From contig NZ_VHLG01000007.1 of the NCBI RefSeq assembly GCF_006516955.1, positions 62,001-126,000 on the forward strand: a stretch of DNA of 64,000 nt, read 5' to 3'. Numbering within the stretch: position 1 is the stretch's first letter; each line of letters starts with the position of its first letter. Shown piece by piece: positions 42,146 through 54,280 of this stretch. The DNA comes from Martelella alba (GTDB lineage: Bacteria > Pseudomonadota > Alphaproteobacteria > Rhizobiales > Rhizobiaceae). The notes beneath the pieces are model-generated. The model searched no databases. It was given only the letters and a program-made list of their open reading frames with translations, and was not told where the DNA came from. Made by a program: the position numbers and the translations under genes.

Positions 42146-42901
42146 TCAGAACCGGTCCCTGAGTTCCTTAGCCTTTGCGCGAACGGCCTCGCCGTCCAGC
42201 CTGACGCGGCGATATTCCCGGTCCTCGGTGCCTTTGCCCATGGAGACATGCGGGTTGCGGTAACGCATTGGACTGTCGAAAAAGGCAGTGGCGCCGAAAT
42301 GGAAATCAATGCCGGTGACGGGACTGCCCTCGGCAAAGAGCGATTGCGGATCGGGATCGCCGCAAACCATGATGATGATCCCGCCATTGGCATGGGCGAT
42401 CATGGTCTTCAGAATGTCTTTTCCTGCCTCCGCCGTGATGCGCTGACCGGAGGACAATAGGCGGTCCACCCCGGCTTCGATCAGGTCATCAAGCGCTTCT
42501 AGCGGATCGCGGGCCATGTCGAAGGCACGGTGGCAGGTCACGCCCATCGGCCGGGCAGCGGCGACGGCCTTTTTCATGCGATCGACATCAATGCGGCCGT
42601 CTTCGGTGAGAATACCGGTCACCACGCCCGCCGCGCCCGCCTCTTTGGCCGCAGCGATATCAGCCAGGATCACGTCGAACTCCGCGTCGCTGTAGCAGAA
42701 ATCGCCGCCGCGCGGACGGATGATCGGGAAGACGGGTATGGAAAGGCGCGCGACCGCCAGCCGGATTTCGCCCATCGAAGGCGTGATCCCGCCTTCGCTG
42801 GCAAGTGCTGCGCAAAGCTCGATGCGTTCGGCACCTGCCTCTTCTGCTGCAAGCGCCTGTTCCAGACCCTCGACGCAGATCTCGATCATCGGTCTTGTCA
42901 T
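42146..42901 (-). CDS. cutC: CutC-family TIM-barrel protein
   Basis: A 251-residue protein of the CutC family, recognised by IEICVEGLEQALAAEEAGAERIELCAALASEGGITPS at the start, the PRGGDFCYSDAEFDVILADI segment, and HRAFDMARDPLEALDDLIEAGVDRLLSSGQ. The family was named for copper tolerance, but that role is disputed; the fold is a TIM barrel with a probable small-molecule site. Here it is the last gene of the leftward arm of a catabolic locus, nine bases after the amidohydrolase, which suggests an enzymatic step in that pathway and not copper handling. That is an inference. Confidence 0.92.
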   Translation of the reverse strand: MTRPMIEICVEGLEQALAAEEAGAERIELCAALASEGGITPSMGEIRLAVARLSIPVFPIIRPRGGDFCYSDAEFDVILADIAAAKEAGAAGVVTGILTEDGRIDVDRMKKAVAAARPMGVTCHRAFDMARDPLEALDDLIEAGVDRLLSSGQRITAEAGKDILKTMIAHANGGIIIMVCGDPDPQSLFAEGSPVTGIDFHFGATAFFDSPMRYRNPHVSMGKGTEDREYRRVRLDGEAVRAKAKELRDRF

Positions 42902-42909
42902 GGTCGTCC

Positions 42910-44115
42910 TCAGCAGCAGGCGCAGCGTGTCAGGAAACGCTCTTCGAAAGGCCTGCGGCCCACTTCCATCTCCTTGCCGCCGAGATAGCAGGCGACGGGC
43001 TGCAGCATACGCTTTCCGGGACGTTCCGTTCCGCGCACATCGGAGAAAATGAAGTCGGCCTCGCAGTCATCCAGTACGGTGATATCGGCATTGGCTCCGA
43101 CGCCGATATGGCCGAGATCGGGGCGGCGGATCGAAAGCGCCGGGCGGCTGGTCGACATGCCGATGACGTCGGGGAGTGACAGCCCGCAATTATAGAGCTT
43201 GCTCATCACATGCAGGAGGTCGTAGCCGGGTCCTTCGACGGCAACGACATGGACGTCGGAGGATATGATATCGGGCAGGAAATCCTGACGGATTGCCGGT
43301 TCGGCGGTCTCATAGGAAAAGGCACCCATGCCATGGGCGATATCGAACAGCACGCCGCGTTTGCGCGCCGCGATGATCTCGGGCAGGATCTCGCCATCCT
43401 CGGTCAGCGCCGAATTGGGCGAGGGACGATAGCAATGGGTGAGAATATCGCCGGGGCGCAGCATCGAGACGACGTCGGCATAGGATGGCGGCGGGCCGCC
43501 AATATGGGTCATCAGCGGCAGGCCGACCTTGTCGGCCGCTTCCAGCGCCAGTTCGAGCGCACCGAGCGCCAGTTCGCCGGTCGCAGGACCGCCGATACGG
43601 ACCTTGACGCCGATGATCTTGTCGCGGTTTTCCTCGATCTTGGCAACGCAGCGATCAACCGGCAGCATTTCGCGCAAGGTGGCTTCACCGATGAACAGCC
43701 CCTTGTCGAAGCCGAAGATGCCGGGAAACGAAATGTTGAGGAAGGCGAGAATGCGATAGGGCGAATTGGCCATGACATAGTCCCGGAAACCGTCATAGTT
43801 TCCGGCACCCGCACTGCCAGCATCGACGAGCGTGGTCATGGCCGAGCGGCGGGCAATCATGTTGGGATCGACGCTGAGCGAGGTCGCCTTGTGATAGACA
43901 TGGGTATGCAGGTCGATCAGGCCCGGCACAACCAGCTTGCCCGTCACATCCTCAACCCGCTTTGCGCCCTCGGTGCTGATATCGGCCGCGACCGCAGCAA
44001 TCTTTCCATGCGTGACCGCGACGTCGAAAATGCCATCCATGCCGTTTCGTTCATCGAGCACACGACCGCCCTTGAGGATCAGATCATAGGGTGCGGACGC
44101 AGTTTTGGTGGTCAT
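42910..44115 (-). CDS. Amidohydrolase-superfamily deacetylase (COG3964 type)
   Basis: A 401-residue metal-dependent hydrolase. The metal site is complete: HTHVY (residues about 68-72), the lysine to be carbamylated in GVKVRIGG, histidines in THIGGPPP and LTHCYRP, and the aspartate in ISSDVHV. The subgroup is the dihydroorotase-like one that includes Agrobacterium Atu3266 and Enterococcus EF0837, with activity on acetylated hydroxy-acids or amino acid derivatives in vitro and no firm physiological role. The gene sits between ridA and cutC in the leftward arm. A role in removing an acyl group from the imported compound is the best guess. Confidence 0.88.
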   Translation of the reverse strand: MTTKTASAPYDLILKGGRVLDERNGMDGIFDVAVTHGKIAAVAADISTEGAKRVEDVTGKLVVPGLIDLHTHVYHKATSLSVDPNMIARRSAMTTLVDAGSAGAGNYDGFRDYVMANSPYRILAFLNISFPGIFGFDKGLFIGEATLREMLPVDRCVAKIEENRDKIIGVKVRIGGPATGELALGALELALEAADKVGLPLMTHIGGPPPSYADVVSMLRPGDILTHCYRPSPNSALTEDGEILPEIIAARKRGVLFDIAHGMGAFSYETAEPAIRQDFLPDIISSDVHVVAVEGPGYDLLHVMSKLYNCGLSLPDVIGMSTSRPALSIRRPDLGHIGVGANADITVLDDCEADFIFSDVRGTERPGKRMLQPVACYLGGKEMEVGRRPFEERFLTRCACC

Positions 44116-44197: not shown

Positions 44198-44584
44198 TCA
44201 GAGCGGCTTGTAGGCGATCGCCTCGATCTCGACGAGAATGTTGATCATCAGACGTGCCTCGCTGGTGGTGCGGGCCGGGAATTTTCCGGGCTCGAAGAAG
44301 GCAGCATAGGCCTTGTTGAAGCGGCCGAAATCGCGGGCATCCTGAAGCCAGGCAGTCGTCTTGCAGACATCCTTCATCTCGCAGCCAGCAAGCTTCAGCG
44401 CCTTTTCGATGTTCTTCATCACCTGGGTCGTCTGGGCTTCGATATCGTGCGGGGCGATCGAGCCATCCGCGCAGACCGGCACCTGGCCGGAGACATAGAC
44501 GAAGTCACCGGCGCGAACGGCGGGGCTCAGCGGTGCCGCGCTGGGCGAGGTTTCGGGGGCGTGGAAGTGTTTCAGTTCGGACAT
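44198..44584 (-). CDS. RidA-family enamine/imine deaminase
   Basis: A 128-residue Rid protein. The core motifs are FVYVSGQVP near residue 28-36, a helical middle with MKNIEKALKLAG, and PARTTSEARLMINILVEIEAIA containing the conserved arginine of the active deaminases. These enzymes hydrolyse reactive enamines such as 2-aminoacrylate released by PLP enzymes acting on serine or threonine. It lies in the same regulon as a PLP enzyme of the D-serine/D-threonine type (50.9 kb), which gives it a direct chemical reason to be here. Confidence 0.92.
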   Translation of the reverse strand: MSELKHFHAPETSPSAAPLSPAVRAGDFVYVSGQVPVCADGSIAPHDIEAQTTQVMKNIEKALKLAGCEMKDVCKTTAWLQDARDFGRFNKAYAAFFEPGKFPARTTSEARLMINILVEIEAIAYKPL

Positions 44585-44616: not shown

Positions 44617-45447
44617 TCATCCCTTTACCGCGCCGCCGGAGAGCCCGGTGATCATGTGCCGCTGCAGCCACATGAACAGGATGGCGACGGGAATGGTGGC
44701 GACAAAGGTCGCGGCCATCACATGGTGCCATTCGATCTGGTAGCGGCCGGACGACAGGGCGGCGATCTTCAGCGGCAGGGTGTAATGTTCGGACGAGCGC
44801 AAGATGGCGAGTGCCAGCGCATATTCGTTCCAGGCACCGATGAAGGTGAAAAGCGCCGTTACCGCCACAGCGGGGGCGGCCATGGGAACGAACACGGTGC
44901 GGATCGCATGGAAGGGCGAGGCGCCTTCAAGCCAGGCGGCATGTTCCAGCTCGACGGGAATGGAGGCGAAATAGGAACGCAGCATCCAGACGGCGAAGGC
45001 GATGTGGAAGCAGCAATAGAGTACCGAAAGGGCGATCAGCGAATCGAGCGCGCCAATGCCGACCACGAGCCGGAACAGGCCGATCACCAGCACCACCGGC
45101 GAAAACATCTGCGTCACCAGAAGGAAGGTCTGGAAGGTGGACTTGCCCTTGAAGGTAAGCCGCACCATGGCATAGGCGGCAGGCACCGAGACGAGGATGG
45201 TCAGAACCGTCGTCAGTACGCCGACAACGAGCGAATTGGTAAGCGCCTCGCCGAAACCGACGGTCTGCCACATGTCCTTGAAGTTGACCCAAGCAAAATG
45301 GCTCGGGATCCAGCGCGGATCGCCGGACAGGACCTCGTCGCCCGGTGTCAGTGACGTCGAAATCATCACCGCAAAGGGGAACAGGTTGATGACGACCAGC
45401 GGAGACAGAATGATCCAGTAGATCAGGGAGCGACGGGCATCAGCCAT
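44617..45447 (-). CDS. Sugar-type ABC permease, MalG-like (CUT1)
   Basis: A 276-residue inner-membrane permease with six helices and an EAA-loop (ELEHAAWLEGASPFHAIRTVFVPMAAPA) in the C-terminal half. AGGAAAAA before ATG 45447 sets the start, which overlaps the stop of the MalF-like gene by eight bases. It is followed 32 bases on by ridA. It belongs with the binding protein at 47.6 kb and the ATPase at 49.9 kb, which together form a complete importer. Confidence 0.93.
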   Translation of the reverse strand: MADARRSLIYWIILSPLVVINLFPFAVMISTSLTPGDEVLSGDPRWIPSHFAWVNFKDMWQTVGFGEALTNSLVVGVLTTVLTILVSVPAAYAMVRLTFKGKSTFQTFLLVTQMFSPVVLVIGLFRLVVGIGALDSLIALSVLYCCFHIAFAVWMLRSYFASIPVELEHAAWLEGASPFHAIRTVFVPMAAPAVAVTALFTFIGAWNEYALALAILRSSEHYTLPLKIAALSSGRYQIEWHHVMAATFVATIPVAILFMWLQRHMITGLSGGAVKG

Positions 45448-46384
45448 TTTTTTCCTCCCGAACGAGGCGCAGATAGATGATGGCAAAGATGGTCAGAAAG
45501 ACGAACATCAAGAGCGATACGACAGACGCTTCGCCGAGCTTTCCATATTTGAAGGCGATCTTGTAAAGATAGGTCACCAGAATATCGGTTGAATTGGCTG
45601 GGCCGCCTTCCGTCAGGATCCAGATGATCGGGAAGGAATTGAAGACGTAGATCACGTTCAGGACGATGGCGATGTTGAGATAGGGCTTCATCATCGGCAA
45701 GGTGATGGTCTTGAAACAATGCCAGTTCGATGCCCCTTCCATCCTCGCCGCCTCGTAGAGATCCGAGGGCAGCGATGACAGTCCGCCGAGGAAGATCGTT
45801 ACCGTGAAGGGGATGGAAACGATGATACCGATCAGGACCATCACGGTGAAGGCTGTCGTCCCGCTTGAAAGCCAAACCACCGGATCGCGCAGGATACCAA
45901 GCTGTTCCAGAAGATGGTTGAGATAGCCGGTCTCACCGTTCAGCGCCCAGCGCCAGACAACCGTCAGCAGCGACAGGGATACCGACCAGGGCAGCATGAC
46001 GATCACCCGGGCAAAGCCGCGGCCGTGGAACTTGTCATTGAGGATCAGCGCCAGGCCGACCGAGCAGATCAGCGTGCCGCCGACCACCAGCAGCGTCCAC
46101 CAGACCGAGCGGATGGCAGCCTGCTGAAACAGCGGATCGGAGAAGACTGCGTGAAAATTGGCAAAATCATTCAAACCCTTCACCTGGCCAAAGCGCGTGA
46201 CCTTGCGCAGTGAGGTCTGGATCAGCGCATAGACCGGATAGATGATGATGAAGGCAGAGAGAATGAGGCCGGGGCCGATAAACAGAAGCGGCACCAGCTT
46301 TTTTGACCAGAGTGAGAGGGGAGTGGGGGCCGCAATGCCCCCGTCACGCGCCATCTCCGGGTCGGATACGGAATGAGCGGGCAT
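45440..46384 (-). CDS. Sugar-type ABC permease, MalF-like (CUT1)
   Basis: A 314-residue permease. A polar N-terminus of about 25 residues precedes the first helix (KKLVPLLFIGPGLILSAFIIIYPVY); the EAA-loop is LYEAARMEGASNWHCFKTITLPMMKPY. An AGGACAAGG box precedes ATG 46384. The gap to the binding-protein gene is only 13 bases and lacks the hairpin seen in the two other ABC operons of this window. Confidence 0.93.
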   Translation of the reverse strand: MPAHSVSDPEMARDGGIAAPTPLSLWSKKLVPLLFIGPGLILSAFIIIYPVYALIQTSLRKVTRFGQVKGLNDFANFHAVFSDPLFQQAAIRSVWWTLLVVGGTLICSVGLALILNDKFHGRGFARVIVMLPWSVSLSLLTVVWRWALNGETGYLNHLLEQLGILRDPVVWLSSGTTAFTVMVLIGIIVSIPFTVTIFLGGLSSLPSDLYEAARMEGASNWHCFKTITLPMMKPYLNIAIVLNVIYVFNSFPIIWILTEGGPANSTDILVTYLYKIAFKYGKLGEASVVSLLMFVFLTIFAIIYLRLVREEKNG

Positions 46385-46397
46385 TGCGGCCTTGTCC

Positions 46398-47654
46398 TCA
46401 GTTCTGCGAAATAACGTCGTTGACCTTGGTCTCAATGTCGGAAAGCGCCGCATCGGGCTCCATCTGACCGAGATAGGTCGACTGTAGATCGGTGATCGTG
46501 GCGTCGGCGATTTCTTCCCAGCCGGCGACCAGCGGAGCGAAATGCGCGCCTGCCAGAAGGTCGGTGAACACCTTCAGGTCTGCATTGTCAGCAAACATCG
46601 GGTTGGCTGCTTCTTCCTTGTTGACTGGCAGGAAGCCTTCGGCCTGATCGAACTTGACGCGCTGATCCGTGGTGAAGAGGAAGTCGAGGAAGGCCCAAGC
46701 CTCATCCTTGACCTTGGAATTCTGGAACATCACGATCGAGTCAGTCACACCGTAGGTCGCGGAGGTGGTGCCCTTCGGAACGGCGGCGAGGCCGTAGTTC
46801 AGGTCAGGCGCCTGTTCTTTGATCTGCTTGGACAGGAACGGGCCGGTGATGACCATGCCAAGCTTGCCCTGCTTGAACAGGTTCTCGATGTCAGCGCGCT
46901 GATAGTCGGTTACGCCCGGCTCTGTCAGGCCTTCCTTGATCATCGTCGTGTAGATGTCCATGGCCTTCTTGCCGGCATCCGAATTGACGGCCGACTTGCC
47001 ATCGGCATTGAGGATCGTGCCGCCATAGCTCCACATCGGGTAGTACCAGTAGACGTCCGTCTCGGTGCTCTTGCCCTGAATGCCATAGGCGTGAGTGCCG
47101 TCCTTGCCGAGATCCTTGATGGCGCGCGATACGGTCAGCATGTCGTCCCAGGTGGCCGGCGGGGCATCAAAACCGGCTTCCTTCAGCAGGTCCTTGTTGT
47201 AGAACATGGCGCGGGCCGAAGCGGCGATCGGCAGGCCATAGGTGGTGCCGTCGACGACTGAAGGCGTCAGGAAGGTCTGGAAGAAGCGATCCTTGAACGC
47301 ATCGTCCATATAGCTGTCGAGCGGTTCGACAACGCCCTGATCGGCGTAATCGAGGATCCAGCGGGTGCCAATGACGGCGAGGTCGGCGTTGACGCCACCC
47401 GAAATATCGGTGACGAGCTTCTGCTGCAGCGAGGCCCACGGCACCATTTCAAGTTCGATCTTGGTGTCGGGATTTGCCGCCATGAAGGCGTCAGCGGCCT
47501 GCTGGAAATACGGCATGGTGTTGGATGAATATTCCGGGATCGTCACCCGCACGGTGCCTGCCTCGGCGGCGCCTGCGGCAAGGATGGCGAATGTGGAAGC
47601 GGCAAGTGCGAGGCGCATTGCGCCCTTGAGCTTGCGCGTGGAAAGCTGATGCAT
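46398..47654 (-). CDS. ABC transporter substrate-binding protein (CUT1)
   Basis: A 418-residue periplasmic binding protein of family 1. The signal peptide has a basic start (MHQLSTRKLKGAMRLALAAS) and probable cleavage after AAEAG. The mature protein begins TVRVTIPEYSSNTMPYFQQAADAFMAANPDTKIELEMVPW. The bound compound is unknown. It leads the leftward arm of the locus and its promoter region is shared with the divergent unknown gene at 47831. The 175 bases between them hold a palindrome likely to bind the LacI regulator. Confidence 0.92.
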   Translation of the reverse strand: MHQLSTRKLKGAMRLALAASTFAILAAGAAEAGTVRVTIPEYSSNTMPYFQQAADAFMAANPDTKIELEMVPWASLQQKLVTDISGGVNADLAVIGTRWILDYADQGVVEPLDSYMDDAFKDRFFQTFLTPSVVDGTTYGLPIAASARAMFYNKDLLKEAGFDAPPATWDDMLTVSRAIKDLGKDGTHAYGIQGKSTETDVYWYYPMWSYGGTILNADGKSAVNSDAGKKAMDIYTTMIKEGLTEPGVTDYQRADIENLFKQGKLGMVITGPFLSKQIKEQAPDLNYGLAAVPKGTTSATYGVTDSIVMFQNSKVKDEAWAFLDFLFTTDQRVKFDQAEGFLPVNKEEAANPMFADNADLKVFTDLLAGAHFAPLVAGWEEIADATITDLQSTYLGQMEPDAALSDIETKVNDVISQN

Positions 47655-47737: not shown

Positions 47738-47784
47738 GCAGGAAATGCAAAATTATGCAAAAAACAAATATTGCGCAATTTGCG
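47738..47784. promoter_or_regulatory. Candidate LacI-type operator region between divergent arms
   Basis: The palindrome ATTGCGCAAT (47770-47779), with the central CG favoured by LacI-family proteins, lies about 115 bases upstream of the binding-protein gene and 52 before the rightward arm. Direct repeats ATGCAAAA (47746-47763 region, TGCAAAATTATGCAAAA) and TTTGCG lie close by. The location could let one repressor control both arms. Confidence 0.5.
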
Positions 47785-47830
47785 TTACCGTGCCAGCATT
47801 CGCCGGACAGAAAGAGGGCAAGAAGCCACG

Positions 47831-49027
47831 ATGAATGGAACAGCAGATGACAAATACCGCGGTCTTTTTGCCTATGGCTGGGACATTGCGGAGATGGATG
47901 ATGACCGTTTTGTCGATGAAGCGCATCGGCTTGGCCTGAATACGATCACTTATGCGGCAGCCTATCACGCCGGAAAGTTTACCAGACCCAAAGGCGTCCA
48001 CGGCAAGATCTTCTTTCCCGAGGATGGGCGAACGCATTTCCGCTCTGATGCTTCGCGTTATGAGGCGATCAAGCCGGAAACCAGTGGTTTTGCTGCCGGG
48101 AATGACCTTTTCGAGCGGCTCTGTGCCCGTAGCGACGTTGCCGTCAGCGCCTGGACCGTGCTGCTGCACAATAGTTTCCTTGGCGCAAAGCATCCAGATT
48201 GCGTGGTCGAAAATGCTTTCGGCGATCGCTATGTCTACTCACTTTGCCCTTCCAATCCTGCCGTTCGGGCCTATGCGCGTAATCTGTGCTGCGATGTTGC
48301 CAATTCCCATGATGTTGAAGGACTGACGCTGGAGACGCCTGGCTTTCTGCCCTTCCGTCACGGCTATCATCATGAATTTGCACTGCTTGGCTCCATGCCG
48401 GGAACGGAAATGCTGCTTGGTCTTTGTTTTTGCGAACATTGCGAAAACCGTGCAAAATTTGCAGGCATTGACGTTGCCGGGCTGCGCGGCCGGGTGAAAA
48501 AGCATGTGGCAGGGGCCATGGACGCGGCTTACGAGCCGCATCCTGCCACCAACCGCGCCTGGGTTGAAGCGGATCTTGTGCTGGATGCCGATCTTGCTGC
48601 CTATCACCGCATGCGCTGCGAGGCGGTAACGAGCCTGGTCGGCGAAATTCGTGAAGCCGTGCGCAAGGATGCGAGCATCCACATCATTCCCTCGGTCAAT
48701 CAGCCGGTCGGTCTTTGCTATCTGGAAGGGTCTGACCTTGCGGCACTGTCAAAGGTCGCCGATGGGCTGGAAGTGTGTTTTTACACGCCGCCAGCTGAAA
48801 CGGCGCTGACGGAGCTTTCCGAGATCCGGGCGCGCACTGGAGACGATGTGTCTATCCGCGCCGTTCTGCGACCGGGCGTTCCAGATTACGCCAGCGAGGG
48901 CGGTTTTGCCGCGACGGTGGCGGCGCTTGAAAATGCCGGGGTTTCCGGCTTCGGCTTCTACAATTACGGTCATGTGCGCGCGAGCGGGCTCGAATGGGTC
49001 GGCCGCGCCATGCATGGCCTCAAATGA
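47831..49027 (+). CDS. Unrecognised protein, possibly TIM-barrel glycosidase-like
   Basis: A 398-residue soluble protein without signal peptide that I cannot assign to a named family. Alternating strand-helix pattern and phrases such as AHRLGLNTITYAA, GLTLETPGF (E168) and GVSGFGFYNYG suggest a (beta/alpha)8 barrel of the glycoside-hydrolase-like sort. Residues 199-204 form CFCEHC, a cysteine cluster like that seen in some uncharacterised GH-like families. Histidines cluster at 177-181 (HGYHH). GAGGG at 47813-47817 is a possible ribosome site, though rather far from ATG 47831. It is the first gene of the rightward arm, so it is probably the first or defining enzyme of the pathway. Confidence 0.75.
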   Translation: MNGTADDKYRGLFAYGWDIAEMDDDRFVDEAHRLGLNTITYAAAYHAGKFTRPKGVHGKIFFPEDGRTHFRSDASRYEAIKPETSGFAAGNDLFERLCARSDVAVSAWTVLLHNSFLGAKHPDCVVENAFGDRYVYSLCPSNPAVRAYARNLCCDVANSHDVEGLTLETPGFLPFRHGYHHEFALLGSMPGTEMLLGLCFCEHCENRAKFAGIDVAGLRGRVKKHVAGAMDAAYEPHPATNRAWVEADLVLDADLAAYHRMRCEAVTSLVGEIREAVRKDASIHIIPSVNQPVGLCYLEGSDLAALSKVADGLEVCFYTPPAETALTELSEIRARTGDDVSIRAVLRPGVPDYASEGGFAATVAALENAGVSGFGFYNYGHVRASGLEWVGRAMHGLK

Positions 49028-49058: not shown

Positions 49059-49853
49059 ATGAAGAGACTTGAAGGGCGCGTGGCGCTGGTGACCGGTGGC
49101 GTTGGTGGCATCGGAACGGCGGTGGTCAAGGATTTCCTCGCCGAAGGCGCCAAGGTCATCATTAGCGATATCAAGGCCGAAGCCGTGGATGCGGCTGTTG
49201 CTGGCTATAAGGCGGAAGGCTATCCGGTTGCCGGCGCTGCTGCCAGCATCATCGACCTTGACGCGCTGCAGGCCGCGGTCGATGCCGCCGTTGCCGAACT
49301 CGGACCGATCGATATCGTTGTTGCCAATGCCAATACCGGCGGTGCGACAACCACCATGGACAAGACCTCGCCGGAACGCTTCCGTCAGGATGTTGCCGAC
49401 AATTTGGCCGGGCAATACAACACCATCCGCGTTGCCATTGATGGCATGAAGGCTAAAAAACATGGCGCGATCGTTGTGGTTGGCTCGGTCAATGGCCTCG
49501 CCACCTTCGGTCAGCCCGCCTATAGCGCTGCCAAGGCCGGGCTTGTCAGCCTGACGCGCACTATGGCGACGGAATATGGCGAGCACAATATCCGCGCCAA
49601 TATCGTTTGCCCCGGCACAGTGCAGACACCGGCCTGGGATCATCGCATTGCCCGCAAGCCTGACGTGATGGACGGGTTGAAGAAATGGTATCCGCTGAAG
49701 CGCGTCGCCATGCCGGTCGATATTGCCAAGGCAATCACCTTCCTTGCCTCTGATGATGCCGGCTTCATTTCGGGCGTTACCCTTCCGGTTGATGGCGGGT
49801 TGATGGCTGGCAATCTGGCAATGTCACGCGAGCTGACGCTGGAGGATATCTGA
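49059..49853 (+). CDS. Short-chain dehydrogenase/reductase
   Basis: A 264-residue NAD(P)-dependent oxidoreductase. Cofactor loop TGGVGGIGTAVV (residues about 12-23), then IVVANANTGG where most SDRs have NNAG, catalytic serine in GSVNG, YSAAK with tyrosine and lysine, and the family-typical C-terminal DDAGFISGVTLPVDGG. The ATG overlaps no other gene; its stop overlaps the ATPase start by one base. It probably oxidises or epimerises a hydroxyl of the imported compound. Confidence 0.93.
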   Translation: MKRLEGRVALVTGGVGGIGTAVVKDFLAEGAKVIISDIKAEAVDAAVAGYKAEGYPVAGAAASIIDLDALQAAVDAAVAELGPIDIVVANANTGGATTTMDKTSPERFRQDVADNLAGQYNTIRVAIDGMKAKKHGAIVVVGSVNGLATFGQPAYSAAKAGLVSLTRTMATEYGEHNIRANIVCPGTVQTPAWDHRIARKPDVMDGLKKWYPLKRVAMPVDIAKAITFLASDDAGFISGVTLPVDGGLMAGNLAMSRELTLEDI

Positions 49854-50923
49854 TGGCGGATCTGGTTCTTTCGCAGATCAACAAGCATTACGGCGATCAT
49901 CAGGTCCTGCACGATATCGACCTGATGATCCCGGATGGCGAATTCGTCGTTCTGGTCGGTCCGTCCGGCTGCGGCAAGTCAACGCTGCTGCGCATGATTG
50001 CCGGTCTGGAAGAGGTGACCTATGGTGATCTGATCATTGGCGGGCATCGCTCCAACCATGTGACGCCGCAGCGGCGCAATATCGCCATGGTGTTCCAGTC
50101 CTACGCGCTGTTTCCGCATATGACGGTGCGTGACAATATCGCCTATGGCCCGAAGCTCAGAGGCGAAAAGGCAGGCGAGATCGACGTCAAGATCGCCCAT
50201 GCCGCCGAAATTCTCAACCTGACGCCCTATCTGGAGCGCTATCCGCGCCAGCTTTCCGGTGGCCAGCGCCAGCGCGTCGCCATGGGCCGTGCCATTGTGC
50301 GCGAGCCGAGCCTTTTTCTCTTTGATGAGCCGTTGTCCAATCTCGATGCGCAGCTGCGAGTACAGATGCGCACTGAAATCAAGGCGCTGCACAAGAAGGT
50401 TGGTCGCACCTCCATCTATGTCACCCATGACCAGATCGAGGCGATGACGCTTGCCGACCGGATCGTGGTGATGAATGCCGGCCATATCGAGCAGATCGGC
50501 ACGCCACTGGAACTTTACGACACGCCGAAAACGCTGTTCGTGGCGAAATTCATAGGTTCACCGGCGATGAATCTGCTGGATGCCAATATTGCCTCGTCTG
50601 ATGGTCAGACGCGCGCGCTGATCGGCGACAGCATTTCCATTGCACTACCCGGCGCCACGGGGCTGCAGCCGGGTGACACGCTGACGCTCGGTATCCGGCC
50701 TGAACATTTCGAACTCGCTCCCGACGGCGAGGGCCTGCCGCTCGCGGTCGATCTGGTCGAGCAGACCGGCGCCGATACCTATGTCTACGGCAAGATCGGC
50801 GGGCAGAGCGTGGTGGCGCTGTTCCGCCATCGCCTCGTTGTCGACAGCGATGCGGTCCTTTCGGTCCGCCCGCAGCTCGGCATGGAGCATCTGTTCAATC
50901 CCCAGACGGGAAAGCGCATCTGA
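49853..50923 (+). CDS. UgpC/MsmK-type ABC ATPase
   Basis: A 356-residue ATPase of the CUT1 group. Walker A GPSGCGKST, Q-loop MVFQSYALFPHMTV, signature LSGGQRQRVAMGRA, Walker B LFLFDEPLSNLD, switch histidine YVTHDQIEA; the C-terminal OB-like TOBE domain is present (residues about 240-350), with GIRPEHF. It is translationally coupled to the SDR gene (TGATG). It should energise the permeases of the leftward arm. As the only CUT1 ATPase in the window it might also serve the nan-type importer, which lacks one. Confidence 0.94.
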   Translation: MADLVLSQINKHYGDHQVLHDIDLMIPDGEFVVLVGPSGCGKSTLLRMIAGLEEVTYGDLIIGGHRSNHVTPQRRNIAMVFQSYALFPHMTVRDNIAYGPKLRGEKAGEIDVKIAHAAEILNLTPYLERYPRQLSGGQRQRVAMGRAIVREPSLFLFDEPLSNLDAQLRVQMRTEIKALHKKVGRTSIYVTHDQIEAMTLADRIVVMNAGHIEQIGTPLELYDTPKTLFVAKFIGSPAMNLLDANIASSDGQTRALIGDSISIALPGATGLQPGDTLTLGIRPEHFELAPDGEGLPLAVDLVEQTGADTYVYGKIGGQSVVALFRHRLVVDSDAVLSVRPQLGMEHLFNPQTGKRI

Positions 50924-50936
50924 AAGGGTGATCGCA

Positions 50937-51989
50937 GTGCATATTGAAGACATCGATACCCCGGCGCCGCTCGTCGATCTGGCAATCGTTGAAGCCAATC
51001 TGAAGCGGATGCAGGATTATTGTGATGCCCATGGCATCAAATTGCGTCCCCACATCAAGACCCACAAGATTGCCGAACTGGCCAGACGCCAGATGGCGCT
51101 CGGCGCCTGCGGTATCACCTGCCAGAAACTCGGCGAGGCCGAGGTGATGGCCGATGCCGGGATTGATGACATTCTGATCTCCTATCCGATCATCGGCCCG
51201 ATCAAGGCAAAGCGGCTTGCCGCGCTTGCCAAGCGGGTGAAGATGACGGTGGCGATCGACAATGATGTTGCCTTTGAAACCGTCGCATCCGCTGCCCGGA
51301 TGGCCGCTGCCAAGATTGCTGTTCTGGTCGAATTCGACAGCGGCATGGGGCGCACCGGCGTCATGTCGGTCGCTGAAGCGCTGCGGCTGGCGCAAAGGGT
51401 TGACGCAGAGCCGGGGCTGCATTTTTCCGGGCTGATGACCTATCCGGCCAATGAGGCGTCTGCCACCTTCGTCAAGGCGGCGCGCCCCGTCTTTGAGGCC
51501 GCCGGTCTGCCAATCCCGATGGTGTCGGGCGGTGGTACGCCTGCGTCGCTGCATATTCACGAACTCGGCGTCATCGATGAGCTGCGCGTCGGCACCTATA
51601 TCTACAACGACCGGATGATGATGGGGGCCGGTCATGCGACGCTGGAAGATTGCGCCTTTGATGTCATCGTCACCGTCGTCTCACGGCCCGAGCCCGATCG
51701 TGCGATCATTGATGCCGGCACGAAGTCTCTCACCAGCGATCCTTCGGGCAAAGGCGGTCCGGGACATGGCCTGATTCGTGAATATCCCGATGCGGTTATC
51801 GTCCGGCTGACGGAGGAACATGGCATGGTCGACCTTTCCGCCTGTCAGAAAAAGCCGGAAATCGGTGAGATCTTGCATGTTGTGCCAAATCACGTCTGTC
51901 CGGTTTCCAATCTCCACGATACCATCTTCGTCAAGGCGGGCGATGAATGTCTCACGTGGCGAGTCGATGCACGTGGTCTGACCCGGTAG
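50937..51989 (+). CDS. PLP enzyme of the D-threonine aldolase / D-serine dehydratase (DSD1) family
   Basis: A 350-residue alanine-racemase-fold enzyme that uses pyridoxal phosphate. The PLP lysine lies in the motif RPHIKTHK near residue 37-44; the phosphate-binding VSGGGTPAS and the late NHVCPV, a metal-site motif of this family, are present. Family members cleave D-3-hydroxy-amino acids to glycine plus aldehyde, or dehydrate D-serine. AAAGGG at 50923-50927 favours GTG 50937; GTG 50928 is also in frame. It lies 13 bases after the ATPase gene. Its presence in a regulon with RidA and a deacylase suggests D-amino acid catabolism. Confidence 0.9.
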   Translation: MHIEDIDTPAPLVDLAIVEANLKRMQDYCDAHGIKLRPHIKTHKIAELARRQMALGACGITCQKLGEAEVMADAGIDDILISYPIIGPIKAKRLAALAKRVKMTVAIDNDVAFETVASAARMAAAKIAVLVEFDSGMGRTGVMSVAEALRLAQRVDAEPGLHFSGLMTYPANEASATFVKAARPVFEAAGLPIPMVSGGGTPASLHIHELGVIDELRVGTYIYNDRMMMGAGHATLEDCAFDVIVTVVSRPEPDRAIIDAGTKSLTSDPSGKGGPGHGLIREYPDAVIVRLTEEHGMVDLSACQKKPEIGEILHVVPNHVCPVSNLHDTIFVKAGDECLTWRVDARGLTR

Positions 51990-52000
51990 GTTTTCTGAAA

Positions 52001-53215
52001 ATGTCTGCATCCACAAATCTTCGCTCGCTGTTTGGCCGGCGCGACTTCGGGCTCTATACGCTTGGCAATTGCGCGGGCTTGCTTGCCCAGTGGATGCTGA
52101 AAACCACGATCGCCTGGCTCGCCTGGGAAATGACCGGCAAGAGCCTGTGGGTCGGCCTGGCGGTGACGGCTGAAATGGTGCCGACTGTTCTGGTCGGTCT
52201 CTATGCCGGTGTCATTGCAGACCGGGCCGATCTGCGCCGCCTCCTTATGCGGATCCAGTTTTCCACGGTCTGCATCTATTCCGCCCTGGCGGTGATGGAT
52301 CTTCAGGGCCTGCTGTCGATCCCGATCATGCTGGCGCTACTCGCCTGTAATGGTGTGATTGTCGGCTTTGCCCAGCCGGCAAGCCAGGCGGCGATTACCG
52401 GGCTTGTCGACCGGGAGGAGCTCGGAACGGCGATCTCTTTGAACTCGATCCTGTTCAATCTTGCCCGTTTTGCAGGCCCGGCCATTGCCGGTGGGCTGAT
52501 TGCGGGCTTCGGTTCGTCCGTGGCGCTGACGGTGACGGCCTTCTTCGCCGGGCTGTTCTTTCTGTCGCTTCTGGTGGTGCATTTCAACGCTGTGCCGCGT
52601 CTGGCGCCTACCGGCTCGATCTTCAGCCAGATTGGCGAGGGTGCGCGCCATATTGTGACGGAGCCGACGGTCTATTTCGTTTTTCTGCTCTATGCCACGG
52701 CCGCCTTCCTGATTCGGCCGATCAGTGAACTTCTGCCGGAACTGGCGGATGCGGTTCTTGGCGGCGGAGCGGAAACGCTGGCCTGGCTGTCTTCCGCCAT
52801 GGGGTTCGGCGCGATCATTGCCGGTGTCATAAACATGGTCGGCGGAGAACGCGGCCAGGTACCGCTTGCCGTCTGGGGCACGCTGCTGGCCGTTATGGGG
52901 GCGCTGGTTCTGGCGCTGACATCCTCGCCGTCTGTCGCGCTTTTCGGTGCTGCCGTGTTCGGCGGGGCGCTTGCCGCGGGCGGCGTCGCCTCGCAGACGG
53001 TGCTGCAGCTCGGTTCACCAGCCCATCTGCGTGGCCGGGTCATGTCCATCCACGGTATCATTTTCCGCGTCGGCCCGGCGCTAGGCGCTGTCATTCTCGG
53101 CGGCGTGGGGGATGCGCTGAGCTTGCAGCGCGCACTACTTGGCGGTATTGCGGCGATGCTTGTAATCTGGTTCTGGCTGGTCAAGCGCAAGGGAGTGCGT
53201 CATGGCCTGCGATAA
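52001..53215 (+). CDS. MFS transporter (EntS-like)
   Basis: A 404-residue membrane transporter with about twelve helices and an early ADRADLRRLLM loop after the second helix. The GFAQPASQAAITGLVDREELGTAISLNSILFNLARFAGPAIAG segment is that of the EntS-type MFS exporters. It starts 11 bases after the PLP-enzyme gene and ends 42 bases before the LacI gene. In the locus it may export a product or a toxic by-product; import by this route would be redundant with the ABC system. The substrate is unknown. Confidence 0.88.
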   Translation: MSASTNLRSLFGRRDFGLYTLGNCAGLLAQWMLKTTIAWLAWEMTGKSLWVGLAVTAEMVPTVLVGLYAGVIADRADLRRLLMRIQFSTVCIYSALAVMDLQGLLSIPIMLALLACNGVIVGFAQPASQAAITGLVDREELGTAISLNSILFNLARFAGPAIAGGLIAGFGSSVALTVTAFFAGLFFLSLLVVHFNAVPRLAPTGSIFSQIGEGARHIVTEPTVYFVFLLYATAAFLIRPISELLPELADAVLGGGAETLAWLSSAMGFGAIIAGVINMVGGERGQVPLAVWGTLLAVMGALVLALTSSPSVALFGAAVFGGALAAGGVASQTVLQLGSPAHLRGRVMSIHGIIFRVGPALGAVILGGVGDALSLQRALLGGIAAMLVIWFWLVKRKGVRHGLR

Positions 53216-53257
53216 GGTGATTGCTGTCAGAACATGCGACAGGAAGGTGGAGGCAGG

Positions 53258-54280
53258 ATGAAGGAACGGGCCAGGCGCATCAATCAGGCCGATATTGCCG
53301 AGCTTGCCGATGTCTCCATCAGCACCGTCTCGCGTGCCCTTGGCGGCGCACATGGCATCTCGCCGGAGGTGCGCGAGCGGATCCGGCGGATCGCCGATGA
53401 ACTTGGCTATTCCGAGCGTCCGCCCGTGCAGCTTACCGCGCCTGCGATCAAGGCGGTGGTCTATCTGCCGATGCACCCGGTCACCGGTGGCCTGCATCCG
53501 ATCTTTCAGGAAACCTATGACGGTATTGTAGCTGCGGCAGCAGAAAACGCGTTCGAACTGTTTCCCAAGCTTCTGCCGGAGGAAGATATTGATCTGGCGC
53601 TGATCCGGGAGACTGCCGACTATCACGGAACGGCGACCGCCTTCATGTTCTATGTCGACCCTGTTCCGGAGGTTGCACGCTTCTTTCAGGAAAGCGGCAG
53701 TCTTGTTCTGGTCAACAATATCGATGCTGATATGCGTTTTGATAGTGTGATCGTTGACAATTATGCAGGTTCCAAGCTTGCGACACGAAAAATGCTGGCC
53801 GCTGGTCATCGCAATATCCTCTTTGTCGCAGGCAATTTGCGGTATTCCCCGCGCGAACGGTTGCGTGGTTTCTACGATGCGATTGCTGAATGCCCCGATG
53901 CCAGTGGTCAGCAGGTGGTCATTGGCTATGATCGCCATGAGACAGCGATGGACTATTTCAAGCGCTATTTCGAAAGCCGTGAAAGCTGGGACTGGACCGC
54001 GATCGTTTGCGGCAATGATCTGATGGCGATCGGCATTCTGCAGGCTGCGCGCGAATGCGGGCTTACCGTGCCGGACGATTTCTCCATTATCGGTTTTGAC
54101 GACATCAGCTGGTCGGCGATGACCACGCCGAGGCTCGCGACTGTCCGCTATGAGCGGGCCGGGCTCGGCGAGGAGGCCATCCGCCTGATGAAGCGCCGGA
54201 TCGAATATCCAGACGCGCCGGTCATCAAGGCCTCCGTCGGCGTAACCTTTGTCGATGGCGGCACGGTCGGGGGATTTTAG
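53258..54280 (+). CDS. LacI-family transcriptional regulator
   Basis: A 340-residue repressor. The helix-turn-helix and hinge run from NQADIAELADVSISTVSRAL to IRRIADELGYSER (residues about 8-58), and a periplasmic-binding-protein-like sensor domain follows, with the typical end GFDDISWSAMTTPRLATVR and GTVGGF. An AGGTGGAGGCAGG stretch precedes ATG 53258, so translation should be efficient. It is the last gene of the rightward arm and probably controls both arms through the palindrome near 47775. The ligand is presumably the imported compound or an intermediate. Confidence 0.94.
   Translation: MKERARRINQADIAELADVSISTVSRALGGAHGISPEVRERIRRIADELGYSERPPVQLTAPAIKAVVYLPMHPVTGGLHPIFQETYDGIVAAAAENAFELFPKLLPEEDIDLALIRETADYHGTATAFMFYVDPVPEVARFFQESGSLVLVNNIDADMRFDSVIVDNYAGSKLATRKMLAAGHRNILFVAGNLRYSPRERLRGFYDAIAECPDASGQQVVIGYDRHETAMDYFKRYFESRESWDWTAIVCGNDLMAIGILQAARECGLTVPDDFSIIGFDDISWSAMTTPRLATVRYERAGLGEEAIRLMKRRIEYPDAPVIKASVGVTFVDGGTVGGF

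Follow-up and report, generated by a model that had tools for sequence, protein, structure and literature searches.

The gene at positions 47831-49027 of the 64,000-nucleotide stretch of Martelella alba DNA analysed here, which as a whole we call the window, belongs to an unnamed family whose products are barrel-shaped and probably act as enzymes on sugars, and we consider it likely that its product works in an oxidative route for N-acetylhexosamines akin to the ong pathway. Our leading, still tentative, reading of its product is that of a lactonase: a hydrolase of the cytosol, built as a GH-like TIM barrel, whose site of action is C1 of an oxidised N-acetylhexosamine. From the observed family membership, predicted fold, invariant residues and gene company we infer all of the reactions proposed below for this organism.

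47831..49027, plus strand: TIM-barrel protein of 398 residues, family unnamed (translation, homologues, AlphaFold2, Foldseek, VIA-align, hhalign)

Translation gives an intact frame of 398 residues on the plus strand, with no internal stop, and places E168, H177-G-Y-H-H181 and C199-F-C-E-H-C204 where the initial annotation had marked them. That annotation could name no family for the protein, and this holds: searches against Pfam (E<=10) and NCBIfam returned no family, comparison with PDB sequences gave no meaningful match, and the family profile found only chance matches in the PDB. Eighty homologues, 39-92% identical to the window protein, were fetched from one genome collection, the nearest named relative being that of Martelella sp. 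HB161492 (92% identical). Carriers of the family include many bacteria and some salt-loving archaea, and a homologue is present in 151 plasmid records, mostly of Rhizobium together with haloarchaea. No signal-peptide-like stretch was found at the N terminus. The same genome holds a paralogue, 36-37% identical, at another place (L093). A paralogue locus of this genome (L139, G000:C7:15000-34900) encodes a ribose-type ABC importer, a creatininase-family protein, a PTE-family protein and an FGGY kinase, a cluster unlike that of the window.

AlphaFold2, supplied with an alignment of 79 sequences, confidently predicts a TIM barrel (mean pLDDT 93, pTM 0.92), with strands 1-8 at residues 9-14, 38-44, 104-110, 164-168, 282-286, 312-316, 341-346 and 373-376. 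The barrel suspected from periodicity, and the strand-end position proposed for E168, are both recovered in this model, in which E168 closes strand 4. Two stretches stand out:

48332..48334, plus strand: codon for E168, last residue of strand 4 (unchanged in 89/89 homologues and kept in four haloarchaeal ones)
48359..48376, plus strand: H177-G-Y-H-H-E182, loop after strand 4 (H177, H180, H181 and E182 invariant in the bacterial family)

E168, H177, H180, H181 and E182 are invariant in all 89 homologues, so that the histidine cluster at 177-181, singled out earlier, is no chance feature. Invariant positions at strand ends and in the loops that follow them also include W17, Y45, H46, H113, N114, Y318, R347 and Y377, and among 79 sequences there are 28 invariant columns, many of them at strand ends. 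Key invariant residues are kept across proteobacterial classes and haloarchaea: four haloarchaeal homologues retain W17, H46, W108, H113, C139, E168, C199, C201, C204, R262, Y318 and Y377, and have lost R347. This arginine directly follows strand 7 (341-346), and the first conserved acid beyond it is D352.

The same alignments bear on the cysteine cluster, for which a zinc ion had been suggested, and reveal a fourth partner, C139, that had been overlooked.

48245..48247, plus strand: C139, which completes the probable zinc site as its fourth cysteine (co-conservation)
48425..48442, plus strand: C199-F-C201-E-H-C204, holding the other three cysteines of this probable site (co-conservation)

C199, C201 and C204 are each conserved in 96-98% of the 89 homologues, and all four cysteines occur together in 85 of them. 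The remaining four sequences, a single clade in the tree and hence one or two events, have lost C139, C201 and C204 together, two of them also C199. That the four cysteines are lost or retained in a nearly all-or-none manner is as a shared metal site would predict, and zinc binding by this cluster is probable. By analogy with some GH42 enzymes, in which a cysteine-zinc cluster is held to be structural (PMC8573354), a zinc ion at C139/C199/C201/C204 would probably be structural and not catalytic. H203 was considered as a further ligand and ruled out, being unconserved (histidine in 44 and alanine in 36 of 89 sequences).

With the window model as query, Foldseek placed PgaB (GH153) at the top (E 1.9e-11), with Cwp19 and GH42 next, and VIA-align scored Cwp19 best (Z 26.8, rmsd 2.9 over 291 residues), followed by PgaB (25.1) and GH42 (about 23). 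As barrels are common, a shared barrel fold alone is little proof. In profile comparison, hhalign aligned the family with GH153 over 283 columns (residues 14-381) at P 1.3e-5, versus 0.11-0.82 for reversed or shuffled controls. A remote relationship links the window barrel to GH153 (PgaB) and to GHL10; a confident match to a characterised family, the outcome which the initial annotation had named as contrary to its reading, was absent for the window protein, and this distant kinship was found in its place.

The likeness to GH153, the C-terminal domain of PgaB, lies in its being the top Foldseek match and in its activity on amino sugars, the kind of substrate proposed for the window protein. 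The catalytic acid of GH153 stands at strand 4, the strand that E168 closes; in the alignment E168 falls one residue before the catalytic Asp of BbPgaB (D474), and one residue off the HDD motif of PgaB. PgaB differs in being periplasmic, with a polymer groove, and is 14-16% identical to the window protein, and the GH153 model PF14883 matches neither the window protein in the Pfam search nor anything in its own genome. The GHL10 model (PF02638) weakly matches 18 of 79 family members over strands 3-4, and two homologues (L056 and L070) exceed its Pfam cut-off (30.4 and 30.3 bits vs 27.9). The window protein itself falls below the curated cut-off, with no match at E<=10; kinship to GHL10 at the level of the family appears likely from these matches, although by the cut-off rule the window protein is no member. 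The characterised GHL10 members known to us, among which we count DigH as a PF02638 protein, are exported cell-wall enzymes. Cwp19 is a GHL10 lytic transglycosylase (PMC6016235). With the GH42 beta-galactosidases the window protein shares the strand 4 Glu, a CxCxxC motif after it and an earlier Cys, as in Gal42 (C113/C153/C155/C158; PMC8573354), a four-cysteine cluster that only part of GH42 has; it differs from them in lacking the nucleophile Glu at strand 7, where Arg347 stands instead. Profile comparison gave no significant match to GH42 (P 0.03-0.17), and the alphaproteobacterial GH42 proteins used for it were without the CxCxxC cluster.

The window gene heads the rightward arm of a divergent locus, the genes of which are as follows.

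42146..42901, minus strand: CutC-family TIM barrel (among the fetched loci, only in Martelella and Maritimibacter, 5/80)
42910..44115, minus strand: amidohydrolase/deacetylase-family metallohydrolase (PRK09237), proposed N-acetylhexosaminate deacetylase (family match)
44198..44584, minus strand: RidA-family protein, cf. OngD (family match)
44617..45486, minus strand: MalG-like permease (family match)
45440..46453, minus strand: MalF-like permease (family match)
46398..47654, minus strand: sugar ABC solute-binding protein, SBP_bac_1 (family match)
47763..47786, no strand assigned: palindrome, core TTGCGCAA, between the two divergent arms (recurs at this position in five related loci)
49059..49853, plus strand: SDR dehydrogenase, glucose 1-dehydrogenase-like, proposed to carry out C1 oxidation (family match; directly downstream in 63/80 loci)
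49853..50923, plus strand: MalK/UgpC-type ABC transporter ATPase (family match)
50928..51989, plus strand: PLP enzyme of fold type III (Ala_racemase_N + D-ser_dehydrat), by family like OngC (estimated start codon)
51947..53215, plus strand: MFS transporter (called from sequence; conserved in Martelella and Maritimibacter loci)
53234..54280, plus strand: LacI-family regulator (family match)

The CutC-family gene ends the leftward arm of the sugar operon and might encode a pathway enzyme; CutC proteins are annotated for copper. Between the window gene and the divergent solute-binding protein gene lie 176 bp, for which a shared promoter had been assumed. A consensus search of these 176 bp found no sigma-70-like promoter. 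The region is nevertheless plausible as a shared control region for both arms, given its length and the recurring TTGCGCAA palindrome, which is retained in five related loci despite diverged flanking DNA and is a possible LacI-family operator.

The gene company of the family was assessed across 80 homologue loci, in which neighbouring genes were called mechanically and assigned by homology, and those at <=6 kb (888 kb in all) were compared with those farther away within the same loci (595 kb). An SDR gene is near in 63 loci, always directly downstream, vs four loci in which one is far and never in that position; the near and far counts are 49 and 3 loci for the deacetylase, 43 and 2 for RidA, and 41 and 1 for the D-Ser-dehydratase-like PLP enzyme. 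Deacetylase, PLP deaminase and RidA occur jointly within 6 kb in 29 of the 80 loci, and by family all three are present in the window. The simplest operon, that of Undibacterium (L040), consists of dgoK, ridA, the window-gene homologue, sdr, a NagP-like importer and ongC-like and ongB-like genes, with no additional sizeable same-strand gene inside it; another locus (L059) has an ABC-importer version of this operon plus an aldolase. The kinase neighbour is PF05035 DGOK (2-keto-3-deoxygalactonate kinase), and the OngB-like neighbour matches PpOngB (E 2.8e-135). Some loci carry a GH31 gene upstream, and the one GH31 neighbour tested (L037) matches an alpha-N-acetylgalactosaminidase in the PDB (E 1.7e-118). 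A Haloferax locus combines an enolase-superfamily enzyme, SDR, RidA, a KDPG aldolase and a KDG/KDGal kinase. Five chitin-degrading Chitinibacteraceae lack the SDR and have KdgK in place of DgoK; LPMO_10 is encoded in all five of these SDR-less KdgK genomes vs 0 of 14 others tested, the five forming one clade and hence one evolutionary event, and the presence or absence of the SDR changes only twice on the tree. These clusters look like an ong pathway fed by an SDR or an LPMO, often in the galacto series.

Other members of the family keep different company. In Devosia, Mesorhizobium and relatives (e.g. L008, L012, L020), an NMT1/THI5-type importer and Gfo/Idh/MocA dehydrogenases often join the gene and the SDR (26-27 loci), an association suggestive of another class of substrate. 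A Halorussus homologue (L100:9995-11170) lies among AnmK, NagZ, GH18 and peptidoglycan-recognition protein genes, that is, cell-wall or chitin amino-sugar genes.

In the route that we propose, the importer would bring the sugar into a non-phosphorylative amino-sugar pathway, in which the SDR would oxidise C1 of the N-acetylhexosamine (GalNAc where DgoK is present) to the 1,5-lactone. The window protein would open this lactone to the N-acetylhexosaminate, which the deacetylase, the PLP deaminase and RidA may convert to 2-keto-3-deoxy-gluconate or -galactonate, and a kinase and then an aldolase would complete the route. E168 would serve as the general base or acid, no nucleophile being needed, and zinc on the four cysteines may hold the strand 4 loop. 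GH31, NagP and kinase genes are all absent from the window locus, its PLP enzyme shares only 23% identity with that of Undibacterium, and its deacetylase belongs to an amidohydrolase group other than OngB's. Because of this deacetylase group, and because the kinase and aldolase genes of the same genome lie on contigs other than the window's, the route in Martelella is an extrapolation.

The lactonase assignment is reached by elimination. Names can be given to nearly all the other conserved neighbours, in agreement with the earlier view of the window gene as the pathway's unassigned step; the Undibacterium operon leaves one gene and one step, lactone opening, and this favours a lactonase, an activity that requires no nucleophile. 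We know of no lactonase with this fold, however, aminosugar lactones may open unaided, and the fold relatives are glycosidases or a lytic transglycosylase. The assignment is also weakened by other lactonase-like genes beside paralogues, namely Amidohydro_2 in Rhizobium and the PTE-family protein in Martelella.

These fold relatives allow another reading, which we hold possible but rather doubtful: a cytosolic glycosidase that cleaves an imported disaccharide or small glycoside to free its N-acetylhexosamine or N-acetylhexosaminate, E168 serving as the acid in an inverting or substrate-assisted (acetamido) mechanism. Such an activity is consistent with the structural and profile kinship to GH153 and GHL10 (to GH42 by structure only), with the location of E168 on strand 4, where the catalytic acid is expected, and with the MalEFGK-type importers of 15 loci, close relatives of the window among them; GH153, too, does without the usual sort of second catalytic acid (PMC5933820). 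Against a glycosidase speak the lack of an acid at the end of strand 7, the site of the GH42 nucleophile, and the importers of monosaccharide type: where a NagP-like MFS importer and a GH31 exo-GalNAcase are encoded together, the sugar delivered should be a monosaccharide, and the Martelella and Rhizobium paralogues lie beside ribose-type importers. Another metal-dependent enzyme (isomerase, epimerase or hydrolase), with its metal on H46, H113, E168 and H180/H181, seems improbable. The first three residues, at or just past the points where strands 2, 3 and 4 end, are invariant and also kept in the four haloarchaeal homologues, three of which also have H180/H181; yet we know of no metal in the catalytic centres of GH153, GHL10 and GH42, nor of any family that shares this ligand arrangement. 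A non-catalytic sugar-binding or scaffold protein, conceivable for a family without known activity whose gene Silvimonas carries without the pathway genes, is very hard to reconcile with the many invariant strand-end columns and their retention from proteobacterial classes to haloarchaea.

We cautiously prefer the lactonase over the cytosolic glycosidase. The wider claim, that a nucleophile-less GH-like barrel has turned N-acetylhexosaminono-lactonase, forming a new enzyme family that completes a widespread oxidative, non-phosphorylative GalNAc/GlcNAc catabolism, is more speculative than the assignment itself. Literature searches found no description of such a GalNAc/GlcNAc pathway and nothing relevant on a galactosaminate or N-acetylhexosamine dehydrogenase, and a term search of a haloarchaeal glycosaminoglycan paper gave nothing corresponding to the window locus. 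If true, the claim would name a family now annotated 'hypothetical protein' in plant-associated rhizobia, marine bacteria, chitin degraders and haloarchaea, and would define an amino-sugar pathway with oxidation first and phosphorylation last, in which mucin-type GalNAc and LPMO-oxidised chitin converge on one downstream enzyme set. The adjoining SDR would become a candidate gene for N-acetylhexosamine 1-dehydrogenase activity, which we take to be EC 1.1.1.240.

In the ong pathway, GlcNAc1A is deacetylated and deaminated to KDG, which is then phosphorylated (PMC9537276). The clusters described here resemble this pathway (OngB, OngC, OngD and KdgK, acting on GlcNAc1A in Pseudoalteromonas; PMC9537276) in their clustered deacetylase, fold-type III PLP deaminase, RidA and sugar-acid kinase and, in some relatives, in an RpiR-type regulator. 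They differ in that the eight described ong genes include neither a homologue of the window protein nor an SDR, whereas the window-type loci mostly have an SDR instead of an LPMO to supply the oxidised sugar, and often DgoK for KdgK. The SDR, the candidate lactonase, DgoK and the aldolase recall De Ley-Doudoroff-type oxidation (dehydrogenase, lactonase, dehydratase, KDG/KDGal kinase), the dehydratase step of which would here be replaced by deacetylation and PLP-dependent deamination.
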